A stretch of DNA of 44,762 bases from an uncultured Phycisphaerales bacterium. GTDB lineage: Bacteria > Planctomycetota > Phycisphaerae > Phycisphaerales > UBA1924. The translations under genes and the position numbers were made by a program. Each line of letters starts with the position of its first letter. Within the stretch, counting starts at the first letter, position 1. The notes below the pieces were generated by a model. The model did not search any database. It was not told the DNA's origin and was given only the letters and a program-made list of their open reading frames with translations. Location: assembly GCA_937995595.1 (NCBI GenBank), contig CALKJW010000019.1, positions 1 to 44,762 on the forward strand. Reading direction: 5' to 3'. Below, piece after piece: positions 12,005-25,955 of the stretch.

Positions 12005-12075
12005 CCCGGACCGCCGATCGTCGTGCACGGCACGCGTAAAGCGTGTACGCTGCCGCGTCCGCTCCCGGACGCGTC

Positions 12076-13710
12076 ATGCCACGCTCTCGACGTCCCGACA
12101 TCTCCCTGCACACGCTCGCCGGCCCGCACGGCGGGTCGTACGCCTCCGGCGGCCGCGATCAACTCACGATCGGCCGCGCCGTCGAGTCCGACGTCTGCCT
12201 GCTGCACGAGACGGTGTCGCGCCGTCACGCCTCGGTGGTCTCGCGCCCCGAGGGCTGGTTTGTGGTGGACCACGGCTCGGCCATTGGGACCTGGCTCAAC
12301 GGCCAGCGCGTCTCACCCGCCGCCCCGCTGCCGCTGGTCTCGGGCGACCTGGTCCGCGTGGGCCCGTGGTCGTTCCGGGTCTCGATCGGCAATGGGACGC
12401 CGAGCACCGCCGCGACTGTCGCCGACGACCGCGGCCAGAGCACGCGGATCGAACGCGTGGGGCAGCGTCCGCTGTCGGCCGGCGCGCGGCAACTTCGCAT
12501 GCTGATGCAGGGCCTGTCGCGGATGTCGAGCGCCCCCGACGAGCACATGCTGGCCCGGGCCGCGCTCGACGCCGCGCTGGCCGGGGCCAACTGCACGCAC
12601 GGCGCGGTGCTGCGGCCGCAGGGCGAGGGCGACGACGTGGCCGTGCTGGCGTCGAGCAACGGTCGGGCACCGAGCGGAGAGGGCGAGATCGCCTTCAGCC
12701 GCTCGCTGATCCGCGCCGCCGCGGCGGGACAGACGGCGATCCTGAACGCGGCCGAAGCCGCGCTGCACGCGACCCGGAGCGTGAGCGAACTGGCGATCCG
12801 CTGGGCCGTATGCGCGCCGGTGTTCGTCGGGTCGGAACTGGTCTCGCTGCTCTACATCGACGCCAGAGAGTCGGGCACGGGCGATCACACCGCCGCGGCG
12901 GGCTTCTGCGAGGCCGTCGCCAACGCCTACGGCCTCGCGCTGGCGAACCTGAAGCGGGTCGAACTCGAACGCCGGCAGTCGGCCCTCTCGGCCGAACTGG
13001 CCGCGGCGAGAGAGGCGCAGCAGTTCATCATGCCGCCCGCGCACGCGGCGCAGGGGTTTCTGGGCTACGCGATGCAGATGCGCCCGGGCGTGTTCGTCGC
13101 GGGCGACATGTTCGACGTCGTGCCGATCGACGACGGGCGCGTCGCGGTGTGCCTGGGCGACGTCTCGGGGCACGGCGCGGCGTCGGCGATGCTCATGGCC
13201 GCGGCCCAGTCGCAACTGAACGCGCAGGTCCGCGCGACCCGCGACCCGGGCGCGGCGGTCTGCGCACTCAACCGCTACCTCGGCGAGCGGTCGCTGGGCG
13301 GGCGGTTTGTCTCGCTGTGGCTCGGCGTGTTCTCGCGCGAGGGCGACGTGGAGTTCGTCGACGCCGGGCACGGGTACTGGTTCCTGCGCACCGGCGCGGG
13401 CCTGCGCGGCCCCGCCGCGGGAACGTCGATCCCCGTCGGGATCGATCCCGAAGCGTGCTACGAGGTCTCGCGCGTTCGGCTGTCGCCGGGAGACCGCGTC
13501 GTGCTCTACTCCGACGGCGTGATCGACGAACGCAACCCCGCCGGGGAACCCTTCGGTCAGGAACGTCTGGAGCGCGCCCTCGCCGCGGCACGCAACTGCG
13601 ACGCGGACGTCATCGAGATCTTCAAGGCGGTTGCGCGGTTCGCCGAGGGCGCGCCGCCGACCGACGACGCCACCGCCGCGAGCATCGAGTATCTCGGCCC
13701 GGGTCAGTGA
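12076..13710 (+). CDS. FHA-GAF-SpoIIE (PPM-type) protein phosphatase
   Basis: The 544-residue protein has three modules. Residues 9-103 form an FHA domain that should bind phosphothreonine (GR at 33-34, SRRH at 48-51, 'NGQRV' from 75). Residues about 150-300 look like a GAF sensor domain. A coiled linker leads to a SpoIIE/RsbU-type phosphatase from about 325 with metal-binding motifs 'GDMFD' (343-347), 'GDVSGHG' (361-367), 'YSDGVIDERN' and 'DDATAASI'. Such proteins usually dephosphorylate anti-sigma antagonists or other phosphoproteins. I prefer the ATG at 12076 to the GTG at 12043 because the FHA fold begins there. It ends six bases from the stop of the facing Ser/Thr kinase gene. Confidence 0.9.
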   Translation: MPRSRRPDISLHTLAGPHGGSYASGGRDQLTIGRAVESDVCLLHETVSRRHASVVSRPEGWFVVDHGSAIGTWLNGQRVSPAAPLPLVSGDLVRVGPWSFRVSIGNGTPSTAATVADDRGQSTRIERVGQRPLSAGARQLRMLMQGLSRMSSAPDEHMLARAALDAALAGANCTHGAVLRPQGEGDDVAVLASSNGRAPSGEGEIAFSRSLIRAAAAGQTAILNAAEAALHATRSVSELAIRWAVCAPVFVGSELVSLLYIDARESGTGDHTAAAGFCEAVANAYGLALANLKRVELERRQSALSAELAAAREAQQFIMPPAHAAQGFLGYAMQMRPGVFVAGDMFDVVPIDDGRVAVCLGDVSGHGAASAMLMAAAQSQLNAQVRATRDPGAAVCALNRYLGERSLGGRFVSLWLGVFSREGDVEFVDAGHGYWFLRTGAGLRGPAAGTSIPVGIDPEACYEVSRVRLSPGDRVVLYSDGVIDERNPAGEPFGQERLERALAAARNCDADVIEIFKAVARFAEGAPPTDDATAASIEYLGPGQ

Positions 13711-13716
13711 CCCGGT

Positions 13717-16461
<2,745 letters not shown>

Positions 16462-16575: not shown

Positions 16576-17070
16576 TCAGCCCGCGCGCCGCGTCACCTGG
16601 TCGGCCTGATCGGGCCGCGGGACGTCCGCCCGAGGCAGGCTGAGTTGCGCTCGCACGCCGGCCTGCCCGCGCTGCTGGAACAACGCCATGTCCGCGATGG
16701 TCGTGGCGCTGAGGAACTCGATGTGCGCTGCGCGGTGCGCGCTCCAGAACGCGTGCGCCGGGCACGACCGCTCGTCGCTGCACGGGTGCGGCCCGAGCAT
16801 GCACCGCGGCTGCACGATGGGGTCGCCGAGCGCCTCGCACAGGTCGAGCAGCGTGATCTGCCGGGGCTCGCGCGCGAGCGTCACCCCGCCGCCGATGCCG
16901 CGCTGCGTCGAGACAAACCCGCGGCGGGCGAGCTGGTTCACGATCTTGGCCAGATACGCCGGCGGGATGCCGCACGCCTCGGCGACGTCCTTGACCAGCA
17001 GGGGCCTGCCCGCGGCAAGCGCGACGTGGCCAAGAGCGGCGGCGGCATAGCCAACGGCCTGAGCGAGCAT
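16576..17070 (-). CDS. Rrf2 family transcriptional regulator with putative Fe-S cluster
   Basis: The 164-residue protein has the Rrf2 winged helix ('VKDVAEACGIPPAYLAKIVNQL' and 'RRGFVSTQRGIGGGVTL') followed by the dimerisation helix. Three Cys (C90, C97, C103) sit in the loop where IscR and NsrR bind a [2Fe-2S] or [4Fe-4S] cluster; the spacing here is Cys-X6-Cys-X5-Cys, slightly wider than in IscR. The cluster would let it sense oxygen, nitric oxide or iron-sulphur status. It is divergent from the cbb3 oxidase operon and the two promoters share an 11-bp motif, so it very probably controls both itself and the oxidase. The ATG at 17070 has AGGAGGG ten bases upstream. Confidence 0.92.
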   Translation of the reverse strand: MLAQAVGYAAAALGHVALAAGRPLLVKDVAEACGIPPAYLAKIVNQLARRGFVSTQRGIGGGVTLAREPRQITLLDLCEALGDPIVQPRCMLGPHPCSDERSCPAHAFWSAHRAAHIEFLSATTIADMALFQQRGQAGVRAQLSLPRADVPRPDQADQVTRRAG

Positions 17071-17094
17071 GGGCGAGGAGCCCTCCTAAACAAG

Positions 17095-17123
17095 AGTATA
17101 GGATCAATATATCCCTTTGTCAA
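17095..17123 (-). promoter_or_regulatory. Promoter of the Rrf2 gene
   Basis: On the minus strand, TTGACA (17123-17118), a 17-base spacer and TATACT (17100-17095) form a near-consensus sigma-70 promoter 25 bases upstream of the Rrf2 start codon. The spacer contains the putative operator. Confidence 0.85.
17101..17114 (-). promoter_or_regulatory. Putative Rrf2 operator within its own promoter
   Basis: On the minus strand the spacer of the Rrf2 promoter reads GGATATATTGATCC, an imperfect inverted repeat with GGAT/ATCC arms. It contains the 11-mer GATATATTGAT, repeated with one change (GATATGTTGAT) at the oxidase promoter. A protein bound here would block RNA polymerase, consistent with autorepression. 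The link to the Rrf2 protein is inferred. Confidence 0.6.
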
Positions 17124-17139
17124 CGGGCCACTGTTGACA
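17118..17139. repeat. Inverted repeat between the divergent promoters
   Basis: Seven-base arms TGTCAAC (17118-17124) and GTTGACA (17133-17139) are separated by eight bases. The left arm contains the -35 box of the Rrf2 promoter. The right arm is a TTGACA without a good -10 partner downstream. It may be a second regulator site or a by-product of -35 sequences. Confidence 0.5.
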
Positions 17140-17214
17140 TACCAAACAAAACACAAGTCTATGTACGACGGTTCCGCAATCACAGGAACCTGTGCGTTTC
17201 CACAAGACTCAGAC

Positions 17215-17242
17215 TTGACATCGGGCGATAAAACCGGATAAT
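17215..17242 (+). promoter_or_regulatory. Promoter of the cbb3 oxidase operon
   Basis: TTGACA (17215-17220), a 16-base spacer and GATAAT (17237-17242) form a strong sigma-70-like promoter. The predicted start point is near 17249, giving a leader of about 80 bases before ccoNO. Confidence 0.8.
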
Positions 17243-17245
17243 GAC

Positions 17246-17256
17246 GATATGTTGAT
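17246..17256 (+). promoter_or_regulatory. Putative Rrf2 operator at the oxidase start point
   Basis: GATATGTTGAT on the plus strand matches GATATATTGAT in the Rrf2 promoter at 10 of 11 bases. It covers about -3 to +8 of the predicted oxidase transcript, where a bound repressor would block open-complex formation. It also contains one TTGAT half-site of FNR type but no matching ATCAA. Confidence 0.6.
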
Positions 17257-17330
17257 ATGATTGTCGATTAGTCCGCAATGACCGTTCGGTACCGTGTGCA
17301 CATCGCTCGACCGGTTGGGAGAAGCCAGAC

Positions 17331-19730
17331 ATGAGCGCGACTTCGTCGGTGATCTCAGAACGCCCCGCCCATGCGTCGCACGACGCGGCGACCGAACCGG
17401 ACCCCCTGCACGGCGTGGAGGTGCGTCCGGGGCCGATGGAGCAGTTCACCTACAACGACGCGGTGGTGCGCAAGTTCGCCTTCGCGATCCTGCTGTGGGG
17501 CGTGGTGGCGATGCTGGTGGGGCTGATCGTCGCGCTGCAACTGGTGCTGCCAGTCGCGGCCGAGACGGTCGTCGGCGGGGTGCGGCCGTTCGCGTTCCTC
17601 GACGGCCTGCTGCCGTTCCTCTACGAGACCCCGTGGCTGAACTTCGGGCGGCTGCGTCCGCTGCACACCAACGCCGCGATCTTCGCGTTCGCGGGCAACG
17701 CGATCTTCGCCGCGGTCTACTACTCGACGCAGCGGCTGTGCAAGGCGCGGATGTGGAGCGACACGCTGAGCAACCTGCACTTCTGGGGCTGGCAGGCGAT
17801 CATCGTCGCCGCGGCCCTGACGCTGCCGCTGGGCTACACGCAGAGCAAGGAGTACGCGGAACTGGAGTGGCCGATCGACGTGGCGATCGCGGTGGTGTGG
17901 GTCGGGTTCTTCGGCGTGAACTTCATGATGACGCTGCTGACGCGGCGCGAGCGGCACATGTACGTCGCGCTTTGGTTCTACATCGCGACGATCGTGACGG
18001 TCGCGGTGCTGCACGTGTTCAACTCGCTGGCGATCCCGGCGGGCGCGCTGAAGAGCTACTCGGTCTACGCCGGCGTGCAGGACGCGATGGTGCAGTGGTG
18101 GTACGGGCACAACGCGGTGGCGTTCTTTCTCACCACGCCGTTCTTGGGCCTGATGTACTACTTCCTGCCCAAGGCCGCCGAGCGACCCGTGTACAGTTAC
18201 CGGCTCAGCATCGTGCACTTCTGGAGCCTGGTGTTCATGTACATCTGGGCCGGGCCGCACCACCTGCACTACACCGCTCTGCCGCAGTGGGCCAGCACGC
18301 TGGGCATGCTCTTCAGCCTCATGCTGTGGATGCCCTCGTGGGGCGGGATGATCAACGGCCTGCTGACGCTGCGCGGCGCGTGGCACAAGGTCGCGGCGGA
18401 CCCGGTGCTGAAGTTCTTCGTCGTGGGCATCACGTTCTACGGCATGGCGACCTTCGAAGGGCCGATGCTCTCGATCAAGAGCATCAACGCGCTGAGCCAC
18501 TACACCGACTGGACCATCGCGCACGTGCACGGCGGCGCGCTGGGATGGAACGGCTTCATGACCTTCGGCATGCTGTACTGGCTGGCCCCGCGGCTGTTCC
18601 AGTCGCGCACCGGCGCGCTGTGGAGCAGGCGACTGGCCGAGACCCACTTCTGGGTCGGGACCATCGGCATCCTGATGTACATCGTGCCCATCTACTGGGC
18701 GGGGATCACCCAGGGCCTGATGTGGCGCGCCTTCGACGAGAGCGGCGCGCTGCGCTTCCCCGACTTCGTCGAGACCGTCATGAAGATCATGCCCATGTAC
18801 TGGATCCGCGTCATCGGCGGGTCGCTGTTCCTGCTGGGCATGATCATGTGCGCGGTCAACGTGCTGATGACCTGGACGCTGCGGCCGTCGCGCTACGCCG
18901 AGCCGGTGCAGTCGGCCCCAGCGCTGGGCGCGGTCTACCGCGACCCGCCGAAGCCCGCCTCGCGCCTGCACGCGAACACCGAGTTCGGCCACAGGGGCGA
19001 CGTGTTCCTGCAGGGCCTCTGGCACCGGACGTGGGAACGGCTGCCGGTGAAGTTCACCGTGTGGGTCGTGATCGCGGTGCTCGTCGCGTCGGCGCTGGAA
19101 CTGATCCCCATGGTCGTCGCGCCGATGTTCTCGACGGCGTGGCGCGAGAAGAACATCCCGCGGATCGCCAGCGTGCAGCCCTACACCCCGCTGGAACTGG
19201 CCGGGCGCGACGTGTACGTCGCCGAGGGCTGCTACAACTGCCACTCGCAGATGGTCCGCCCGATCTGGGCCGAGACCAAGCGCTACGGCGAGTACTCCAA
19301 GCCCGGCGAGTTCGCCTACGACCATCCGTTCCAGTGGGGCTCGCGCCGCATCGGGCCGGACTTGGCCCGCATCGGCGGCCTGCGCAGTTACGACTGGCAC
19401 GTGGCGCACCTCGAGAACCCGCGGATGGTGCCGGGCTCGATCATGCCGTCGTACAAGCACCTGTCGCACGAGAAACTCGACTTCAAGGCCATCCAGCGGC
19501 GCGTGAACGCGATGGCGATGCTCGGCGTGCCCTACGGCGAGGCCGTCAAGGGCGACAACGCCGCGCAGATGGCCCGTGACCAGGCCGAGTCGATCGCGGC
19601 CGAGATCGCCACTCAGGGCGGTCCGACGGGCCTGGAGGACACGAAGATGATCGCGCTGGTCGCGTACCTGCAGCGACTGGGAACGGACCTGCACGCCCCC
19701 GCCCCGGCCGAGGCCGGCGCGGCCAAGTGA
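17331..19730 (+). CDS. ccoNO: Fused cbb3-type cytochrome c oxidase subunits I and II (CcoNO)
   Basis: The 799-residue protein joins the catalytic subunit CcoN to the mono-haem subunit CcoO. The CcoN part (about 1-520) has the low-spin haem ligand H112, Cu-B ligands H260 and H310/H311 in 'WWYGHNA' and 'YIWAGPHHLHY', the cross-linking Tyr candidate Y304, and the haem ligands H398/H400 in 'AHVHGGALGW'. The CcoO part (about 550-799) has one membrane helix and the haem c site C634-Y-N-C637-H638 followed by 'SQMVRP', as in other CcoO. It reduces oxygen to water at high affinity and pumps protons in the cytoplasmic membrane. GGGAGAAG precedes the ATG. It is the first gene of an eight-gene operon. 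Confidence 0.96.
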   Translation: MSATSSVISERPAHASHDAATEPDPLHGVEVRPGPMEQFTYNDAVVRKFAFAILLWGVVAMLVGLIVALQLVLPVAAETVVGGVRPFAFLDGLLPFLYETPWLNFGRLRPLHTNAAIFAFAGNAIFAAVYYSTQRLCKARMWSDTLSNLHFWGWQAIIVAAALTLPLGYTQSKEYAELEWPIDVAIAVVWVGFFGVNFMMTLLTRRERHMYVALWFYIATIVTVAVLHVFNSLAIPAGALKSYSVYAGVQDAMVQWWYGHNAVAFFLTTPFLGLMYYFLPKAAERPVYSYRLSIVHFWSLVFMYIWAGPHHLHYTALPQWASTLGMLFSLMLWMPSWGGMINGLLTLRGAWHKVAADPVLKFFVVGITFYGMATFEGPMLSIKSINALSHYTDWTIAHVHGGALGWNGFMTFGMLYWLAPRLFQSRTGALWSRRLAETHFWVGTIGILMYIVPIYWAGITQGLMWRAFDESGALRFPDFVETVMKIMPMYWIRVIGGSLFLLGMIMCAVNVLMTWTLRPSRYAEPVQSAPALGAVYRDPPKPASRLHANTEFGHRGDVFLQGLWHRTWERLPVKFTVWVVIAVLVASALELIPMVVAPMFSTAWREKNIPRIASVQPYTPLELAGRDVYVAEGCYNCHSQMVRPIWAETKRYGEYSKPGEFAYDHPFQWGSRRIGPDLARIGGLRSYDWHVAHLENPRMVPGSIMPSYKHLSHEKLDFKAIQRRVNAMAMLGVPYGEAVKGDNAAQMARDQAESIAAEIATQGGPTGLEDTKMIALVAYLQRLGTDLHAPAPAEAGAAK

Positions 19731-19757
19731 ACGAGCACAGCCGACGGAGGACGACCC

Positions 19758-19937
19758 ATGCGCATGAGCGACATCGTGAGCAGTCTGGACCTGAGCGTCT
19801 ACACACAGGTCGCGCTGGTGCTGTTTGTCGGGGCGTTCGCGGCCGTGCTGGCGCGGACCTTCAGCCGACGCCACCGCGACGAGATGAACCGCGCGGCCCG
19901 CCTGCCGCTGGCCGACGACACCCGCACCGACCGCTGA
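19758..19937 (+). CDS. ccoQ: Small cbb3 oxidase subunit, CcoQ-like
   Basis: This short gene encodes 59 residues: a start 'MRMSDIVSSLDLSVYTQ', one membrane helix ('VALVLFVGAFAAVLARTF') and a basic then acidic tail. Size, topology and position between ccoNO and ccoP match CcoQ/FixQ, which stabilises the interaction of CcoP with the core. The sequence is too short for a firm match, so the call rests largely on context. GGAGG lies seven bases before the ATG, 27 bases after the ccoNO stop. Confidence 0.85.
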   Translation: MRMSDIVSSLDLSVYTQVALVLFVGAFAAVLARTFSRRHRDEMNRAARLPLADDTRTDR

Positions 19938-19972
19938 GCACGACGCGCGACCGAGCCGCAACGAGGACGACC

Positions 19973-20569
19973 ATGAGCCATACCAAAGCCGCTGACCCGC
20001 TGCTGAACCACGAGTACGACGGCATCCGCGAGTACGACAACCCGACGCCGGGGTGGTGGCACGTGCTGTTTTTGCTGACCATCATCTTCTCGTTCTTCTA
20101 CTTCCTGTACTACGAGATCAACCCCGAGTCGGCGACCAACGAGAGCAACCTGCAGGCGGCTCGCGTGGCGCAGACCAAGCGGATCTTCGGCGCCGTCGGC
20201 GAACTGTCGCCCGACGAGGCGACCATTCAGAAGATGCGCGGCAACGCGCAGTTCCTCGAGATCGCCTCGGGCATCTTCCTCGGCAACTGCGCCCAGTGCC
20301 ACGCGCGCGACGGCACCGGCGGCACGGGCGTGAACCTGACCGACGACGCGTACAAGAACGTCAACCGGGTCGAGGACATCTACGCGGTCATCACCCGCGG
20401 CGCGGGCGGGCAGGCCATGCCCGCCTGGGAGAACCGCCTGTCGCAGAACGAGCGGGTCATCCTCGCCGCGTTTGTCGCCAACCTCCGCGGATCGGCGACC
20501 GGCGGCAAGGCGCCCGAGGGCAAGGAGATCCCGCCGTGGCCGCCGATCCCCGCGCCGGAGAGCAAGTAG
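19973..20569 (+). CDS. ccoP: cbb3 oxidase cytochrome c subunit CcoP, single-haem form
   Basis: The 198-residue protein starts with the CcoP N-terminal domain ('DGIREYDNPTPGWWHVLFLLTIIFSFFYFLYYE'), which carries the membrane helix. One cytochrome c domain follows with C106-x-x-C109-H110 ('NCAQCH') and M149 in 'QAMPAW' as probable sixth ligand. The classic proteobacterial subunit has two such domains and about 300 residues. Here the second is absent and the reading frame ends in a Pro-rich tail, so this is a complete one-haem variant, not a truncation. It carries electrons from soluble cytochrome c to CcoO. GAGG precedes the ATG. Confidence 0.95.
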   Translation: MSHTKAADPLLNHEYDGIREYDNPTPGWWHVLFLLTIIFSFFYFLYYEINPESATNESNLQAARVAQTKRIFGAVGELSPDEATIQKMRGNAQFLEIASGIFLGNCAQCHARDGTGGTGVNLTDDAYKNVNRVEDIYAVITRGAGGQAMPAWENRLSQNERVILAAFVANLRGSATGGKAPEGKEIPPWPPIPAPESK

Positions 20570-20648
20570 GCACGCTCCACGTGCGCGACGGCCCGCTCCG
20601 AGTTGAGTCGCTCCCGCCTCTGACCGCCTCTTGTCGGGAACACAGGCT

Positions 20649-22172
20649 ATGAACGCCAGACTTCCCAGCCCGCCCGCCACAACCGCCCCGCCGCCTTGGG
20701 CTCCCCGAACGGCACCGGGCGACAAGGGGTCATCGGCACCCGACGATGGGCACGAAGGGACGGGCATTCTCTCCACGCTCAACGACGACGGATCGCGCCG
20801 GTGGCTCACGCCGCGCGTGTCGCCCGGCAGGTTCCTGACGGCCCGGCGCGCCGTCGCGTACTTCCTGATCGCGGTCTTCACGCTGATCCCCTACCTCGAG
20901 ATCGGCGGCAAGCCGGTGATCCTGCTGGACATCGCCGCGCGGCGGTTCACGCTGTTCGGCAAGACCTTCCTGCCGACCGACACGCTGCTGATGGCGCTCT
21001 TGATGGTGGGCGTGTTCCTCGCGGTGTTCTTCTTCACCGCGTTGTTCGGCCGCGTGTGGTGCGGCTGGGCGTGCCCGCAGACGGTGTACATGGAGTTCCT
21101 GTACCGGCCGATCGAGCGGCTCTTCGAGGGCGCACCGGGGCGGGTTCGCAAGGGCGGGTTCCGCGGCAGCGCGCCGGCCAAGGCCATGAAGTACACCGTC
21201 TACGTCGCGTGCTCGGCCTTTCTGGCGCACACGTTTCTTGCGTACTTCGTCGGCGTCGAGCAACTGCGGCACTGGGTCTTCGGCTCGCCGCTGGACCACC
21301 CGGTCGGCTTCGGCGTGGTGGTGGTTGTGACGGCCCTGATGCTCGTGGACTTCGGCTTCTTCCGCGAGCAGATCTGCCTGGTCGCGTGCCCCTACGGCCG
21401 GTTCCAGTCGGCCCTTCTGGACCGCAACTCGCTGATCATCAGTTACGACCGCGCCCGCGGCGAGCCGCGCGGCAAGGGCAGGCGCGAGCCGCGCCGGACG
21501 CCGGTGAACCTGACCGTCGGCCGCAGCGACGGCGCGCCCGCGCTGGGCGACTGCATCGACTGCCGCATGTGCGTGACGACCTGCCCCACGGGCATCGACA
21601 TCCGCAACGGCCTGCAGATGGAGTGCATCGGCTGCGCGCAGTGCATCGACGCGTGCGACGCCGTGATGGACAAGATCGGCCTGCCGCGCGGGCTGATCCG
21701 GTACAGTTCGCAGGCCGCGATGGAGGGCAGGGGCAGGCGGATCCTCCGCCCGCGGGTCGTGGTGTACCTCGGCGTGCTGGCCGTGGTCGCGACGGTGTTC
21801 ACGCTGCTCTTGTCGACGATGGGCGGGGTGGACCTGACGGTCCTGCGCGGCCTCGGGCACCCGTACACGATGCTCGACGACGGCCGCGTGAGCAACCCGG
21901 TGAAACTGCGCATCGTCAACCGGACCGACCGGGCGCGACAGGTCGGCGTCGAGGTGGTCAGCCCCGCGGGCGCGACGCTGCGGACCGACGAATCGCGGCC
22001 GACGGTCGCGCCCGGCGAGTCCGCCCTGCTGCTGGGCTCGCTCGTCGCGCCGGCCGAGGCGTTTGTCGACGGGCGGTGCGTCGTGACGCTGCGGACGGTC
22101 GCGGAAGACGGCAAGGCGCGCGAGGCCCGGTTCATCATGACCGGCCCGCGCTCGAGGGGAGACCGACGATGA
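20649..22172 (+). CDS. ccoG: cbb3 oxidase assembly protein CcoG (FixG/RdxA)
   Basis: The 507-residue membrane protein is a polyferredoxin needed for copper reduction during cbb3 assembly. It shows 'WCGWACPQTVYMEFLYRPIE' (137-156), several membrane helices and two [4Fe-4S] motifs: C302-x2-C305-x2-C308-x3-C312 and C326-x2-C329-x2-C332-x3-C336. A C-terminal immunoglobulin-like domain begins near residue 415 ('VSNPVKLRIVNRTDRARQV'). I start at ATG 20649; a TTG 18 bases earlier is unlikely. The 79-base gap after ccoP is the widest within the operon and shows no clear promoter. The stop overlaps ccoH by four bases. Confidence 0.96.
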   Translation: MNARLPSPPATTAPPPWAPRTAPGDKGSSAPDDGHEGTGILSTLNDDGSRRWLTPRVSPGRFLTARRAVAYFLIAVFTLIPYLEIGGKPVILLDIAARRFTLFGKTFLPTDTLLMALLMVGVFLAVFFFTALFGRVWCGWACPQTVYMEFLYRPIERLFEGAPGRVRKGGFRGSAPAKAMKYTVYVACSAFLAHTFLAYFVGVEQLRHWVFGSPLDHPVGFGVVVVVTALMLVDFGFFREQICLVACPYGRFQSALLDRNSLIISYDRARGEPRGKGRREPRRTPVNLTVGRSDGAPALGDCIDCRMCVTTCPTGIDIRNGLQMECIGCAQCIDACDAVMDKIGLPRGLIRYSSQAAMEGRGRRILRPRVVVYLGVLAVVATVFTLLLSTMGGVDLTVLRGLGHPYTMLDDGRVSNPVKLRIVNRTDRARQVGVEVVSPAGATLRTDESRPTVAPGESALLLGSLVAPAEAFVDGRCVVTLRTVAEDGKAREARFIMTGPRSRGDRR

Positions 22173-22648
22173 AGCGCTTCAACCTGTTCCCCGCCATCGT
22201 CTTCGTCCTGCTGGGGCTGAACTTCCTGATCGTCGGCATCACGGTCTTCGCGGCCAGCAGCGACGGGGGCGCGGCGATCGAGCCCGACTACTACCAGAAG
22301 GCGCTGCACTGGGACGAGCACCGCGCACAGGAACGCAGGAGCCTTGCCCTGGGCTGGGACGTTCGTGCCGAACTGAGCAGGCGCGACGGCGCGCTGGCGC
22401 TGCGCGTCCGCGTCAACGACGCCGCGGGCGCGGCGATCTCCGGCGCGAGCGTGCACGCGACCGTGTTCCGCAGTGCCGAGGCGCGCCGCCGCTTCACGCT
22501 CGAACTGCGCGAGACGAACACGCCCGGCGAGTACGGCGCGGCGGTCCCGTCCGGCGCGGCGGGCGCGTGGCAGGTGGAACTGGCCGTCGCCGCGCGGGGC
22601 AACGAGTACTCGCGCGTGCTCACCGCGTTCGCGGAGCGCGAGCCATGA
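22169..22648 (+). CDS. ccoH: cbb3 oxidase assembly protein CcoH/FixH
   Basis: The 159-residue protein has an N-terminal membrane helix ('LFPAIVFVLLGLNFLIVGITVFA') and the conserved FixH segment 'IEPDYYQKALHWDEHRAQ'. The rest is a beta-rich periplasmic domain. FixH-type proteins are needed for cbb3 oxidase maturation. ATGA overlaps at both ends link it translationally to ccoG and the next gene. Confidence 0.93.
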   Translation: MKRFNLFPAIVFVLLGLNFLIVGITVFAASSDGGAAIEPDYYQKALHWDEHRAQERRSLALGWDVRAELSRRDGALALRVRVNDAAGAAISGASVHATVFRSAEARRRFTLELRETNTPGEYGAAVPSGAAGAWQVELAVAARGNEYSRVLTAFAEREP

Positions 22649-23442
22649 CCGCGCTCCTGCTGGCCGTGCTCGCCGCGAGCCTGCTGGGCAGCACGCACTG
22701 CGCGGGCATGTGCGGCGCGTTCGTGCTCTTTGCCGTCGCGACGCCCGACGACGCGCCGAGCGTGTGGCGCTCGCGCGCGACGCTGAACGCGGCGTACAAC
22801 CTCGGCCGGCTGGTGACGTACACACTCCTGGGCGCCGTCGCGGGCCTCGTCGGCGCGGGGCTGGACCTCGGGGGCTCGATGATCGGCGTGCAGCGCTCCG
22901 CCGCGGTCGTCGCGGGGGCGATGATGATCGGCTTCGGCGTGGTCGCGCTGCTGCGGGCCCGGGGCGTGCGGGTCGGGCGCGTGCCGCTGCCGGGCGTGGT
23001 CACGCGCGTCGTGGCGGGCGGGCACAGGGCGGTGGCCGACGCCGCGCCGATCACGCGGGCGTGGACCGTCGGCCTGCTCACCACGCTCCTGCCCTGCGGA
23101 TGGCTGTACGCGTTTGCGATCACCGCGGCGGGCACGGGCAGCCCTGTCCCGGGCGCGGCGGTGATGGCCGTGTTCTGGGCGGGCACCTTGCCGGTGCTCG
23201 CGGCGGTGGGCGTCGGCGCGCAGGCGCTGGCCGGGCCGCTGCGTGCCAAGTTGCCGGTGCTGACGAGCCTGCTGCTGGTCGGCGTGGGCGTCTACACCGT
23301 GCTGGGCCGCATGGCCCTGCCGACGCTCGCTCGTCCGCAGGCGGCCGTGGTTGTTGAAACGGTCGACGGCCGGACCGTCGCCCACCGGACCGACGACCTG
23401 CCCCCGTGCTGCCACGGCCCATCGGCCAGGGAGAAGCCATGA
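22645..23442 (+). CDS. TauE/UreH-like membrane protein of the cbb3 cluster
   Basis: The 265-residue protein has about six membrane helices and the motifs 'GSTHCAGMCG' (15-24) and 'LLPCGWLYAF' that mark the sulfite exporter TauE/SafE-UreH group close to DsbD and CcdA. Members found between fixH and the copper ATPase in cbb3 clusters are thought to handle copper or thiols during oxidase assembly; the two Cys-containing membrane motifs fit this. A Cys-Cys-His near the C terminus ('PPCCHG') could also bind metal. The start at ATG 22645 and the stop both overlap neighbours as ATGA. Confidence 0.85.
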   Translation: MTALLLAVLAASLLGSTHCAGMCGAFVLFAVATPDDAPSVWRSRATLNAAYNLGRLVTYTLLGAVAGLVGAGLDLGGSMIGVQRSAAVVAGAMMIGFGVVALLRARGVRVGRVPLPGVVTRVVAGGHRAVADAAPITRAWTVGLLTTLLPCGWLYAFAITAAGTGSPVPGAAVMAVFWAGTLPVLAAVGVGAQALAGPLRAKLPVLTSLLLVGVGVYTVLGRMALPTLARPQAAVVVETVDGRTVAHRTDDLPPCCHGPSAREKP

Positions 23443-25955
23443 GCTCCGACGCGCGGACAACCCCGGCCGCGGCAACGCGCACCGACATCGCCTGCTCGCA
23501 CTGCGGCCTGGCCGTGCCGGCGGGGCTCGTCGATCGCGGCGCGTCGGAGCAGTTCTGCTGCGAAGGTTGCCGCACGGCGTACGCGGTGATCCACTCGTGC
23601 GGGCTGGACAGGTACTACGCGCTCCGAGAGAGGCTGGAGGATCGGGAGGACCGCGCGCCGGCCCGCTCGACGCGCGCCCGCTACACCGAGTTCGACGATC
23701 CGGCGTTCGCCGAGTTGTACTGCCGCCCCGCCGCGCCCGACGCCGCGCCGGGGCGCGGGCTGTGGTCGTGCGAGTTGTTCCTGCAGGGCGTGCACTGCGC
23801 GGCGTGCGTGTGGCTGGTTGAGCGTCTGCCGCGGGTGTGCGACGGCGTGGTGGAATCGCGCCTCGACCTGCGCCGCGGCATGGTGCGGATCGTCTGGGAC
23901 GCGGGCCGGGTGCACCTGTCGCGCGTCGCCCGCGCGCTGGACTCGCTCGGCTACCCGCCGCACCCGGCGCGCGACGCGAGCGACCGCGACCTGCGCCGGC
24001 GCGAGGACCGCCGCCAACTGGTGCGCGTTGGCGTGGCGGGCGCGTGCGCGGGCAACGTGATGCTGCTGGGCCTTGCGCTCTACGCCGGGCTGTTCGACGC
24101 GATGGAGCCGGCGTACGCCGCGCTGTTCCGCTGGGCGAGCATGGGCGTCTCGCTGGTCGCGCTGGCGTGGCCGGGGTCGGTGTTCTTCCGCTCGGCGTGG
24201 GCCGCGCTGCGGACGCGGACGATGCACCTGGACGTGCCGATCGCGCTGGCGCTGGGCACCGGCGGCGTGTGGGGCGTGGTGAACACGGTGCGCGGCGCGG
24301 GCGAGATCTACTTCGACTCGCTGAGCGTGCTGGTGTTCCTGCTGCTGGTGGGCAGGTTCATCCAGCACCGCCAGCAGCGGCGGAGCGCGGACGCGGTCGA
24401 GATGCTCTTCTCGCTCACGCCCACCAGCGCGCTGCTGGTCGAGGACGACCCGGACGGCGGCCCCGGCTCGACGCGCGAGGTCTCGATCCAGAGCCTCCGC
24501 GCCGGGCAGACGGTCGAGGTGCGCGCGGGCGCTTCGGTGCCGGTCGACGGCGTGGTCGTCGCCGGCCTGTCGCAGGTCGATCAGTCGCTGCTCACCGGCG
24601 AGTCGCGCGCCGTGACGGTCGAGACCGGCGACCGCGTCGCGGCGGGCACGGTCAACCTCGCCGCGACCATCCGCGTGCGCGTGGAGGCCACCGGCGCGCA
24701 GACCCGCATCGGCAGGCTGATGGCGCTGGTGCAGGAGTCGCTGGGCCGCCGCGCGCCGATTGTCCGGCTCGCCGACCGCATCGCGGGCTGGTTCCTGGCG
24801 GGGATGCTGGGCCTGGCCGCGCTCACGCTCGGCCTGTGGCTCGCGCTGGACCCGGCCAACCCGTCGCTGGCGGTCGATCACGCCGTCGCGCTGCTGGTCG
24901 TGACGTGCCCGTGCGCGCTGGGCCTGGCGACGCCGCTGGCGCTGACGGTGTCGATCGGCCGCGCGGCGCGGCGCGGCATCCTCATCAAGGGCGGCGGCGT
25001 GCTGCAGGCGCTCGCCTCGCCGGGCACGATCGTGCTCGACAAGACCGGCACGCTCACCGTCGGCCGCATGCGCGTGGTGCGTACGCGCCTCAACGGAGAG
25101 ACCCGCGCCGCCGTGTGCGCAATCGAGCGGCACTCGACGCACCCCATCGCCCGGGCGATCGTCGAAGCGTTCGCCTGCCCGGCCTGGGCGGAAGCAACCG
25201 ACGTGTCGCACACGCTCGGCGGGGGCATGGAGGGCACGGTGCGCGGGCGGCGGCTGGCCGTCGGCTCGCCCGCCTTCATCGCGTCGCGAATCGGCGGGCT
25301 GTCTGATGCCGACGCACGCGCCGTCGGCGAGCTCACCGGCGCGGGTCTCACGCCCGTGCTCGTCGCCGAGAGCGGCCGCGTCGTGGGGTCGGTCGGCCTG
25401 GGCGACCCGCTCCGCCCCGATTCGGCCGGCGCGGTCGCCGACCTCCGCGCCCGCGGCTGGGAGCCGCTGGTCCTGTCGGGCGATCACGACGCCGTCGTCG
25501 GCGCGGCGGCGAGCGACCTGGGCCTGCCGCGCGCCTCCGCACGCGGCAGCGCGACGCCCGAGGACAAGGTGAGCGTGGTGCGCGATCTCGCGTCGCGCGG
25601 CGGGACGGTCGTCATGGTCGGCGACGGCGTGAACGACGCGGCCGCGCTGGCCGCGGCGACGGTCGGCATCGCCGTCCACGGCGGCGCGGAGGCGAGTCTT
25701 GCCGCGGCGGACGTGTACCTCTCGCGTCCGGGGTTGAGCCCGGTGCTGGAACTCAACGACGGCGCGCGTCGGACCATGCGGACCATCAAGGCGTGCCTGG
25801 GCGCGTCGCTGTGCTACAACCTCGCCGCGGCGTCGCTGTGCGTGGCGGGATTGATCAGCCCGCTGATCGCGGCGGTGGTCATGCCCGCCAGTTCGCTGAC
25901 CGTGCTGACGTTGTGCGTGCGTTCGGGCGCGTTCCGTGGCAGGAGGGTGTCATGA
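23439..25955 (+). CDS. ccoI: Copper-translocating P-type ATPase CcoI
   Basis: The 838-residue P1B-ATPase exports copper for cbb3 assembly. The N terminus holds a Cys-rich metal-binding domain (C19-x2-C22, 'FCCEGC' from 39), then a heavy-metal-associated domain with 'HCAACVWLV' (C120, C123). Membrane helices follow, the actuator 'TGES' (386-389), the transport motif C490-P-C492, 'DKTGT' (phosphorylated D534), 'HSTHPIA' and 'GDGVNDAAAL'. All catalytic residues are present. The combined Cys-rich plus HMA N terminus is typical of CcoI/FixI rather than general copper exporters. It starts in the ATGA overlap with the TauE-like gene and ends in one with ccoS. Confidence 0.95.
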   Translation: MSSDARTTPAAATRTDIACSHCGLAVPAGLVDRGASEQFCCEGCRTAYAVIHSCGLDRYYALRERLEDREDRAPARSTRARYTEFDDPAFAELYCRPAAPDAAPGRGLWSCELFLQGVHCAACVWLVERLPRVCDGVVESRLDLRRGMVRIVWDAGRVHLSRVARALDSLGYPPHPARDASDRDLRRREDRRQLVRVGVAGACAGNVMLLGLALYAGLFDAMEPAYAALFRWASMGVSLVALAWPGSVFFRSAWAALRTRTMHLDVPIALALGTGGVWGVVNTVRGAGEIYFDSLSVLVFLLLVGRFIQHRQQRRSADAVEMLFSLTPTSALLVEDDPDGGPGSTREVSIQSLRAGQTVEVRAGASVPVDGVVVAGLSQVDQSLLTGESRAVTVETGDRVAAGTVNLAATIRVRVEATGAQTRIGRLMALVQESLGRRAPIVRLADRIAGWFLAGMLGLAALTLGLWLALDPANPSLAVDHAVALLVVTCPCALGLATPLALTVSIGRAARRGILIKGGGVLQALASPGTIVLDKTGTLTVGRMRVVRTRLNGETRAAVCAIERHSTHPIARAIVEAFACPAWAEATDVSHTLGGGMEGTVRGRRLAVGSPAFIASRIGGLSDADARAVGELTGAGLTPVLVAESGRVVGSVGLGDPLRPDSAGAVADLRARGWEPLVLSGDHDAVVGAAASDLGLPRASARGSATPEDKVSVVRDLASRGGTVVMVGDGVNDAAALAAATVGIAVHGGAEASLAAADVYLSRPGLSPVLELNDGARRTMRTIKACLGASLCYNLAAASLCVAGLISPLIAAVVMPASSLTVLTLCVRSGAFRGRRVS

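Follow-up and report, generated by a model that had tools for sequence, protein, structure and literature searches.

The divergent rrf2 and ccoNO genes

The window (the whole stretch of DNA analysed, 44,762 nucleotides from an uncultured Phycisphaerales bacterium) contains a cbb3 oxidase operon together with its assembly genes, the fused ccoNO, ccoP (recognised by Pfam), ccoG and a CcoI-type ATPase all being present. The gene of an Rrf2-family regulator is divergent from ccoNO, and an AT-rich gap of 266 bp lies between the two. The genes are the following.

16576-17070, minus strand: rrf2, Rrf2-family regulator of 164 amino acids with C90-X6-C97-X5-C103-X2-H106
17331-19730, plus strand: ccoNO, fused cbb3 subunits I and II, 799 amino acids; NF011053, 1187 bits (cut-off 1080)
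19973-20569, plus strand: ccoP, cbb3 subunit III, start inferred within the ORF 19727-20569; Pfam FixP_N and Cytochrome_CBB3; TIGR00782, 110 bits, below the cut-off of 180
20631-22172, plus strand: ccoG; TIGR02745, 426.5 bits (cut-off 316.7)
22567-23442, plus strand: DsbD_2-type membrane protein encoded among the oxidase genes; PF13386, E 6.4e-40; no NCBIfam match
23406-25955, plus strand: ccoI-type copper P-type ATPase; TIGR01511, 434.7 bits (cut-off 397); the name CcoI is inferred from context

A ccoN-ccoO fusion has been described in the accessible text on Melioribacter (PMC3534657). Two genes that converge tail to tail occupy 12043-16461, beyond rrf2: the plus-strand one has FHA and SpoIIE-phosphatase domains, the minus-strand one a Ser/Thr kinase domain and TPR repeats.

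By its domain, its cysteines and its fold the regulator is a member of the Rrf2 superfamily. It scored over the cut-offs of the general Rrf2 models (TIGR00738, 98.3 bits, cut-off 73.3; Pfam Rrf2 PF02082, E 6.7e-28) and below those of the equivalogs, among which the Xanthomonas-type SUF regulator was the best-scoring (TIGR02944, 60 bits, cut-off 110.65); the corresponding values were 55.6 bits against 207.55 for IscR (TIGR02010), 48.7 against 193 for RirA, 40.7 against 195 for CymR and 37.4 against 182 for NsrR (NF008240). The structure model had a mean pLDDT of 85.2, and the fold search matched it to CymR (Z 14.7, rmsd 3.1, 126 aligned), IscR (Z 13.8, rmsd 2.7, 116 aligned), RsrR (Z 12.9, rmsd 4.1, 132 aligned) and NsrR (Z 12.8, rmsd 3.5, 135 aligned). 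This search confirms the superfamily only, and the protein could still belong to a family missing from its list. The Cys-X6-Cys-X5-Cys motif pointed out in the preliminary description of the locus, which had been made from the DNA letters, is present as C90-X6-C97-X5-C103, and these cysteines as well as H106 were invariant in 12 aligned sequences. Three conserved cysteines suit the binding of an Fe-S cluster, which would be carried by C90, C97 and C103 (with H106).

The usual control of cbb3 operons is exerted by FNR or FixK, and it had been suggested that an Rrf2 protein takes over this role here. The genome is in line with this: a cNMP-binding domain (PF00027, E 0.001) was not found in the 96%-complete genome, and HTH_Crp_2 (PF13545) gave a single genome match, in a protein of 178 residues which we take to be MntR-like. 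An FNR-like box (TTGAT-N4-ATCAA, at most 2 mismatches) was not found in the gap, and elsewhere in the window weak FNR-box matches numbered 8 against 2.2 expected. With no CRP/FNR-type regulator detected in a genome of this completeness and no FNR-like box in the gap, the FNR/FixK route appears to be absent, though an FNR may conceivably have been missed, and the locus does not fit an FNR-controlled cbb3 operon.

Each arm of the gap carries a promoter and an 11-mer; operators R and C, to which the 11-mers are referred below, are described in the next section.

17095-17123, minus strand: rrf2 promoter, -35 TTGACA (17123-17118), N17, -10 TATACT (17100-17095); 11 of 12 consensus bases
17103-17113, minus strand: first 11-mer, GATATATTGAT, within the N17 spacer of the rrf2 promoter; core (positions 9-19) of operator R
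17215-17242, plus strand: oxidase promoter, -35 TTGACA (17215), N16, -10 GATAAT (ending at 17242); 11 of 12 consensus bases
17246-17256, plus strand: second 11-mer, GATATGTTGAT, just 3' of the oxidase -10 and over the predicted start; left part (positions 1-11) of operator C

The two 11-mers and the two sigma70-like promoters were all recovered, by sequence and by promoter scan, where the preliminary description had placed them. The scan returned 3 sites in 2.6 kb compared with a mean of 0.3 in shuffles, and the rrf2 promoter was identical in the sister species (L033) in the gap alignment. Midway through the gap (within 17134-17165) the plus strand has an extra TTGACA, for which the scan gave no good -10; it is partly kept as TTGACC in the sister species.

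At up to one mismatch the 11-mer has 2 copies in the window against 0.01 expected, and in the whole 3.11-Mb genome its pattern occurs exactly twice, both times in the gap, and the reversed pattern 0 times. Inside the gap 2 pairs of 11-mers alike within one mismatch were observed; when the gap was dinucleotide-shuffled 200 times, 26% of the shuffles gave one such pair or more and 10% gave two or more. The pair is weak evidence by itself, because such pairs are not rare in shuffles of this AT-rich gap. The check that had been proposed, a search for GATATRTTGAT upstream of orthologous Rrf2-cco pairs, was run and the literal form failed: it was present in only 1 of 57 non-redundant gaps (3 of 120 loci, namely the window and two copies of the sister-species locus). 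The literal 11-mer, confined to the genus of the window, was consequently rejected as the operator.

The 28-bp operator

Searches for the regulator covered 151 genomes from the order and 163 from the family, 75 of the latter matching the ortholog profile with E <= 1e-30, as well as the GTDB contigs, from which the best 80 of 100 relatives were kept. The 120 loci with an rrf2-ccoNO pair (some genomes were fetched twice) were reduced to 57 gaps at most 60% alike, and motif discovery was carried out on 105 arms from 56 gaps, excluding the own genus of the window. The dominant motif, found in both arms, was a 28-bp inverted repeat, GAnTAnnnGA-N8-TCnnnTAnTC, consisting of two 11-bp halves 6 bp apart (11-6-11); its 20-mer version reads GActA.a.GA.c...t.gTC. 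Log-likelihoods of 528 (20-mer) and 620 (28-mer dyad) were reached, compared with 56-63 and 32-44 for six shuffled sets, although the search of these sets used fewer starting points (60 versus 120-200). The 20-mer scored above 6 in 99 of the 105 arms, in sample.

Under two-fold cross-validation, the top-scoring site of a locus fell in the rrf2-ccoNO gap, which made up 5.5% of the sequence searched, in 56 of 57 loci, and both best sites did so in 53 of 57; the single miss, L101, has its best site at the edge of the gap. Models built from one arm recognised the other: with a model from the rrf2 arms only, 48 of 49 oxidase arms (20-mer) or all 49 (28-mer) exceeded the 95th shuffle percentile, and with a model from the oxidase arms only the same held for 50 (20-mer) or 48 (28-mer) of 56 rrf2 arms. 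The rrf2 arm of L098 escapes the 20-mer model, and those of L075 and L108 score below 0; in L075 the long gap contains a second, more distant site, and L108 has one site only. A segment control ruled out that the motif derives from sigma70 promoter elements: the rrf2-arm model marked none of 26 oxidase -35/-10 segments (with the operator elsewhere) against 25 of 26 segments downstream of the -10. Furthermore, a model trained solely downstream of the -10 placed 49 of 56 rrf2 arms above the 95th shuffle percentile.

The window has two such operators.

17094-17121, unstranded: operator R, 28-bp dyad, GAGTATAG-GA-TCAATATA-TC-CCTTTG-TC; covers the rrf2 promoter from -35 to -10
17246-17273, unstranded: operator C, 28-bp dyad, GATATGTT-GA-TATGATTG-TC-GATTAG-TC; centred at about +11 relative to the predicted oxidase start

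When the model made without the genus was applied to the 44,735 positions of the window, operator C ranked first (13.45) and operator R second (13.07); ranks three and four (7.31 and 4.43) were these two sites displaced by 8 bases, and the best score elsewhere was 3.24. The sister species (L033, on the same contig as L147 of the same-genus genome G205; Rrf2 90% identical over 134 residues) keeps 28 of 28 bases of operator C and 27 of 28 of operator R, compared with 61% of the remaining gap. The earlier proposal that both promoters share an operator stands in this form, but the shared unit is a degenerate 28-bp dyad and not GATATRTTGAT, in whose alignment the core of one operator had been matched to the left part of the other. 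The two 11-mers occupy different registers of the operator, and their identity is in part a by-product of an 8-base GA periodicity.

Operator R is centred at -19 relative to the predicted rrf2 start. Among 53 rrf2 arms with site and promoter, 18 had the centre at -27/-28 and 15 had it at -19/-20; among 51 oxidase arms, 16 had it between -28 and -11 and 35 between 0 and +29. These counts omit low-scoring sites and promoters, allow a promoter at most 75 bases from the operator, which favours overlap, and refer to predicted starts. The two registers of the rrf2 arm are 8 bases apart, thus the GA of the -35 TTGAC acts as either the inner or the outer GA of the dyad. Nearly all of the placements predict repression, as the preliminary description had read the two arms of the window, where the operators lie over the rrf2 core promoter and over the predicted oxidase start.

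At up to one mismatch the dyad pattern occurs in 3 places of the genome, which are operators R and C and the GC-rich C15:1846-1873, and this restriction points to a dedicated local switch.

Regulator and operator in other genomes

Within the family, 64 loci (L113-L176) were compared, comprising matches to E 2e-56 minus the own locus of the window and one cut by the contig end. In 54 of them ccoNO is divergent from rrf2; the ten others include two with fewer than 300 bases beyond the rrf2 start and L174, which has a weak ccoNO match only.

The operator was then scored before ccoNO genes, counting the best site within 300 bases if it exceeded the 99th shuffle percentile (30 of 33 non-training ccoNO genes were examined). 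It was present before 56 of 57 ccoNO genes with a close Rrf2 ortholog, all of which except L003 had been used in training, and before 12 of 17 whose divergent Rrf2 is less closely related, with 27-40% identity to the closest of six Rrf2 queries. By contrast, among 13 ccoNO genes without adjacent Rrf2 it was present in 2 and absent in 11. A reciprocal view was given by 26 distinct relatives of the regulator not seen beside ccoNO (47-65% identical to that of the window; 4 of the 26 have fewer than 450 bases upstream, so that ccoNO may lie out of view there): in the 150 bases upstream of rrf2, 23 had a site above the 95th and 16 above the 99th shuffle percentile, with scores of for example 18.0 in L016, 15.5 in L175 and 15.2 in L081, a record titled Acidobacteria. 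The other three (L014, L078 and L086) had no site in these 150 bases.

On this comparison the operator goes with the regulator clade rather than with ccoNO, 23 of 26 relatives keeping it and 11 of 13 ccoNO genes without Rrf2 lacking it. The link between regulator and operator, put forward originally as an inference, therefore holds in comparative genomics. Two loci, L196 and L190, have a good operator before ccoNO with no Rrf2 adjacent; the genome of L196 (G134) has a relative of the regulator elsewhere on the same contig, and these sites are possibly served in trans.

In L185, L189, L191-L193, L195, L199, L200 and L206 ccoNO is divergent from a more distant Rrf2, which has 33-40% identity to the L018 query. 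These loci carry variant sites such as CGATAAGTATATCCG or GCATAAATATATC, and regulator and operator seem to have diverged together in them. The titles of two records, L063 and L093 (Cyanobacteria and Leptolyngbya), look mislabelled, their loci matching genomes of the family of the window: L063 shares the gap start of L008, and L093 shares the locus of L163.

Another kind of neighbour was met in records titled Trueperaceae. In six of eight such loci (L070, L074, L077, L079, L087, L088) the small subunit of a NiFe hydrogenase follows the rrf2 relative, with the large subunit after it in the five loci reaching that far, and a second, weaker site (4.1-8.5) stands 73-80 bases before the small-subunit gene; the hydrogenase was called by Pfam on L087 and L074 and by tblastn matches in the others. 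In L081 the rrf2 relative precedes a ferredoxin-oxidoreductase-like gene.

Proposed control, alternatives and related systems

The operator, its two copies, their conservation, their placement relative to predicted promoters, the link with the regulator clade and the lack of detectable CRP/FNR-type regulators and of an FNR-like box in the gap were computed here; binding, cluster, repression and signal are inferred, and it is very probable that a dedicated Rrf2 repressor controls the cbb3 operon and its own gene through the two 28-bp operators. An Rrf2 dimer would bind both inverted repeats. At rrf2 the site over the -35 and -10 would exclude RNA polymerase, a negative autoregulation limiting the amount of the regulator, and at ccoNO the site over the start point would block initiation or escape, preventing synthesis of the oxidase as long as there is no signal. 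In air the repressor would be in its DNA-binding form, which would disappear on reduction of the cluster, as for RsrR, and the oxidase would thus be made at low oxygen. The most likely signal is a fall in oxygen or in cellular redox potential, an assignment by analogy which we make tentatively and at somewhat less than an even chance. It is suggested by the high-affinity oxidase here and by the hydrogenase in the Trueperaceae-titled records, since both suit low oxygen or reducing conditions.

Other readings differ in how much of this scheme they keep. The simplest of them takes the shared 11-mer as a chance repeat in an AT-rich gap between ordinary, unregulated promoters; the frequency of one-mismatch pairs in the gap shuffles (26%) and the absence of the literal 11-mer from the other 56 gaps speak for it, but a 28-bp model made without the genus ranks precisely these two sites first and second in the window, and they are nearly unchanged in the sister species. 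Motif discovery against shuffles, cross-validation, the cross-arm models and the window ranking refute this reading, and we give it practically no weight. It is also conceivable that the dyad is the site of another regulator and the neighbouring Rrf2 a passenger, given that binding of Rrf2 to the dyad is a prediction and that good sites precede 2 of the 13 ccoNO genes with no Rrf2 beside them. This is, however, highly improbable in view of the relatives away from ccoNO, 23 of 26 of which keep the site upstream of rrf2, of the 11 of 13 ccoNO genes without adjacent Rrf2 that have no site, and of the site variants accompanying more distant Rrf2 proteins.

The two remaining readings keep operators and repressor and change the signal. 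With nitric oxide in this role, as for NsrR, the cluster would be damaged, repression would end and the oxidase would be made under nitrosative stress. NsrR is a structural neighbour (Z 12.8), and the three invariant cysteines lie in the region of the NsrR/IscR ligands; nevertheless the NsrR equivalog score (37.4, cut-off 182) is low, and the hydrogenase of the six Trueperaceae-titled records and the ferredoxin-oxidoreductase-like neighbour in L081 fit low oxygen or reducing power better, which makes nitric oxide an improbable signal. Less remote, but still unlikely in our judgement, is a regulator that reads the supply of Fe-S clusters or iron, in the manner of IscR, RirA or RisR, and lowers the synthesis of the oxidase. 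The Cys3-His pattern, invariant in the 12 aligned sequences, resembles that of IscR, which is also a near fold (Z 13.8), and the best-scoring equivalog, below its cut-off, is the SUF regulator. In addition, RisR represses from sites over -35/-10, its release being modelled on iron starvation or oxidative stress in the accessible text of PMC9973013. Against a reading of iron or Fe-S supply, the nine window proteins scanned include no isc or suf gene, and the dyad marks the divergent pair and one GC-rich place, a set too small for an iron-homeostasis regulon.

The dedicated Rrf2 repressor proposed here can be compared with several characterised systems. IscR of Escherichia coli shares the Rrf2 fold and the pattern of three Cys and one His. 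Its ligand spacing is C-X5-C-X5-C-X2-H and that found here is C-X6-C-X5-C-X2-H; the layout of its sites differs from the 28-bp dyad, and its targets are isc and suf instead of a cbb3 oxidase. NsrR, an Fe-S repressor, has the same fold, but the score obtained here is far below its equivalog cut-off, and the operator fragment in the solved complex is of 23 bp according to the structure title, compared with 28 bp here. FNR/FixK, an activator of another family, has the cbb3 oxidase as its target as well, and the same low-oxygen outcome is presumed here. The cluster of RsrR is held by E8 and H33, which are not kept in this regulator, position 8 being an invariant Tyr and position 33 a His in 0 of 12 aligned sequences.

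There are also likenesses to RsrR of Streptomyces venezuelae, which has the Rrf2 fold, is an autoregulator and has a divergent partner gene (PMC5015018). According to the accessible text of that paper it carries a [2Fe-2S] cluster, its oxidised form binds best, and the region between the two divergent genes contains two full inverted-repeat sites that are thought to block RNA polymerase (PMC5015018). The same text gives differences: the full sites of RsrR are 11-3-11 and one base apart, against the 11-6-11 operators here, 117 ChIP-seq targets stand against one divergent pair, and the gene divergent from that of RsrR encodes not an oxidase but a regulator that has an NAD(P)-binding-type domain (PMC5015018). 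RisR of Myxococcus xanthus is likewise an Rrf2 protein with an Fe-S cluster (predicted in our case) whose sites overlap the -35/-10 (suf) or the -10 (isc) of its targets; it differs in controlling isc and suf and in its cysteines, C92, C102 and C108 (accessible text of PMC9973013). The gene of CtaR, an Rrf2 protein of Acidithiobacillus ferrooxidans, also stands beside oxidase biogenesis genes, those of aa3 oxidase assembly, and the accessible text of PMC2754497 describes no operator; a CtaR-type regulator of T. denitrificans is stated there, with data not shown, to cluster with cbb3 biogenesis genes.

In the open-access literature searched, no Rrf2 operator at a cbb3 promoter in Planctomycetota was found, nor was an operator for an Rrf2-oxidase pair, or this regulator in Planctomycetota, found described. 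The switch appears to be common to many related uncultured planctomycetes, where it apparently replaces the usual cbb3 regulator. On a wider scale, a large part of Phycisphaerales and, by record titles, a few other phyla might use an Rrf2 clade with a 28-bp operator on cbb3 as an FNR-independent oxygen or redox switch, with regulator and operator moved to a NiFe hydrogenase in the Trueperaceae-titled records; we put the chance of this only slightly below even. If true, it would represent a portable one-component module for microaerobic energy enzymes, and a journey of the operator with its regulator to another energy enzyme is suggested. For uncultured bacteria this is a concrete proposal, in which regulator and operator are specified together with the two promoters and the sign of the regulation, and the motif is so precise that the two sites stand out in a 3-Mb genome; the largely unexplored Rrf2 superfamily would gain a respiratory oxidase as target with a defined operator.

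The search of the 163 family genomes with a strict form of the dyad, too strict for sensitivity as it misses even the window, matched 11 genomes against 5 for the reversed control. Among these 11 matches, 6 lie some 20-160 bases upstream of the rrf2 ortholog, 1 (L225) is unexplained and 4 belong to one macro-domain locus. The latter locus was seen in four species of one genus (L219-L222, genomes G169-G172), where an identical, perfect 28-bp dyad stands at promoter-like sequence before a macro-domain gene (PF01661 was run on L221 only, and the other three share the same gene start). In L219-L222 the dyad and the rrf2 ortholog are on different contigs, and the macro-domain gene is a possible second target of the regulator.
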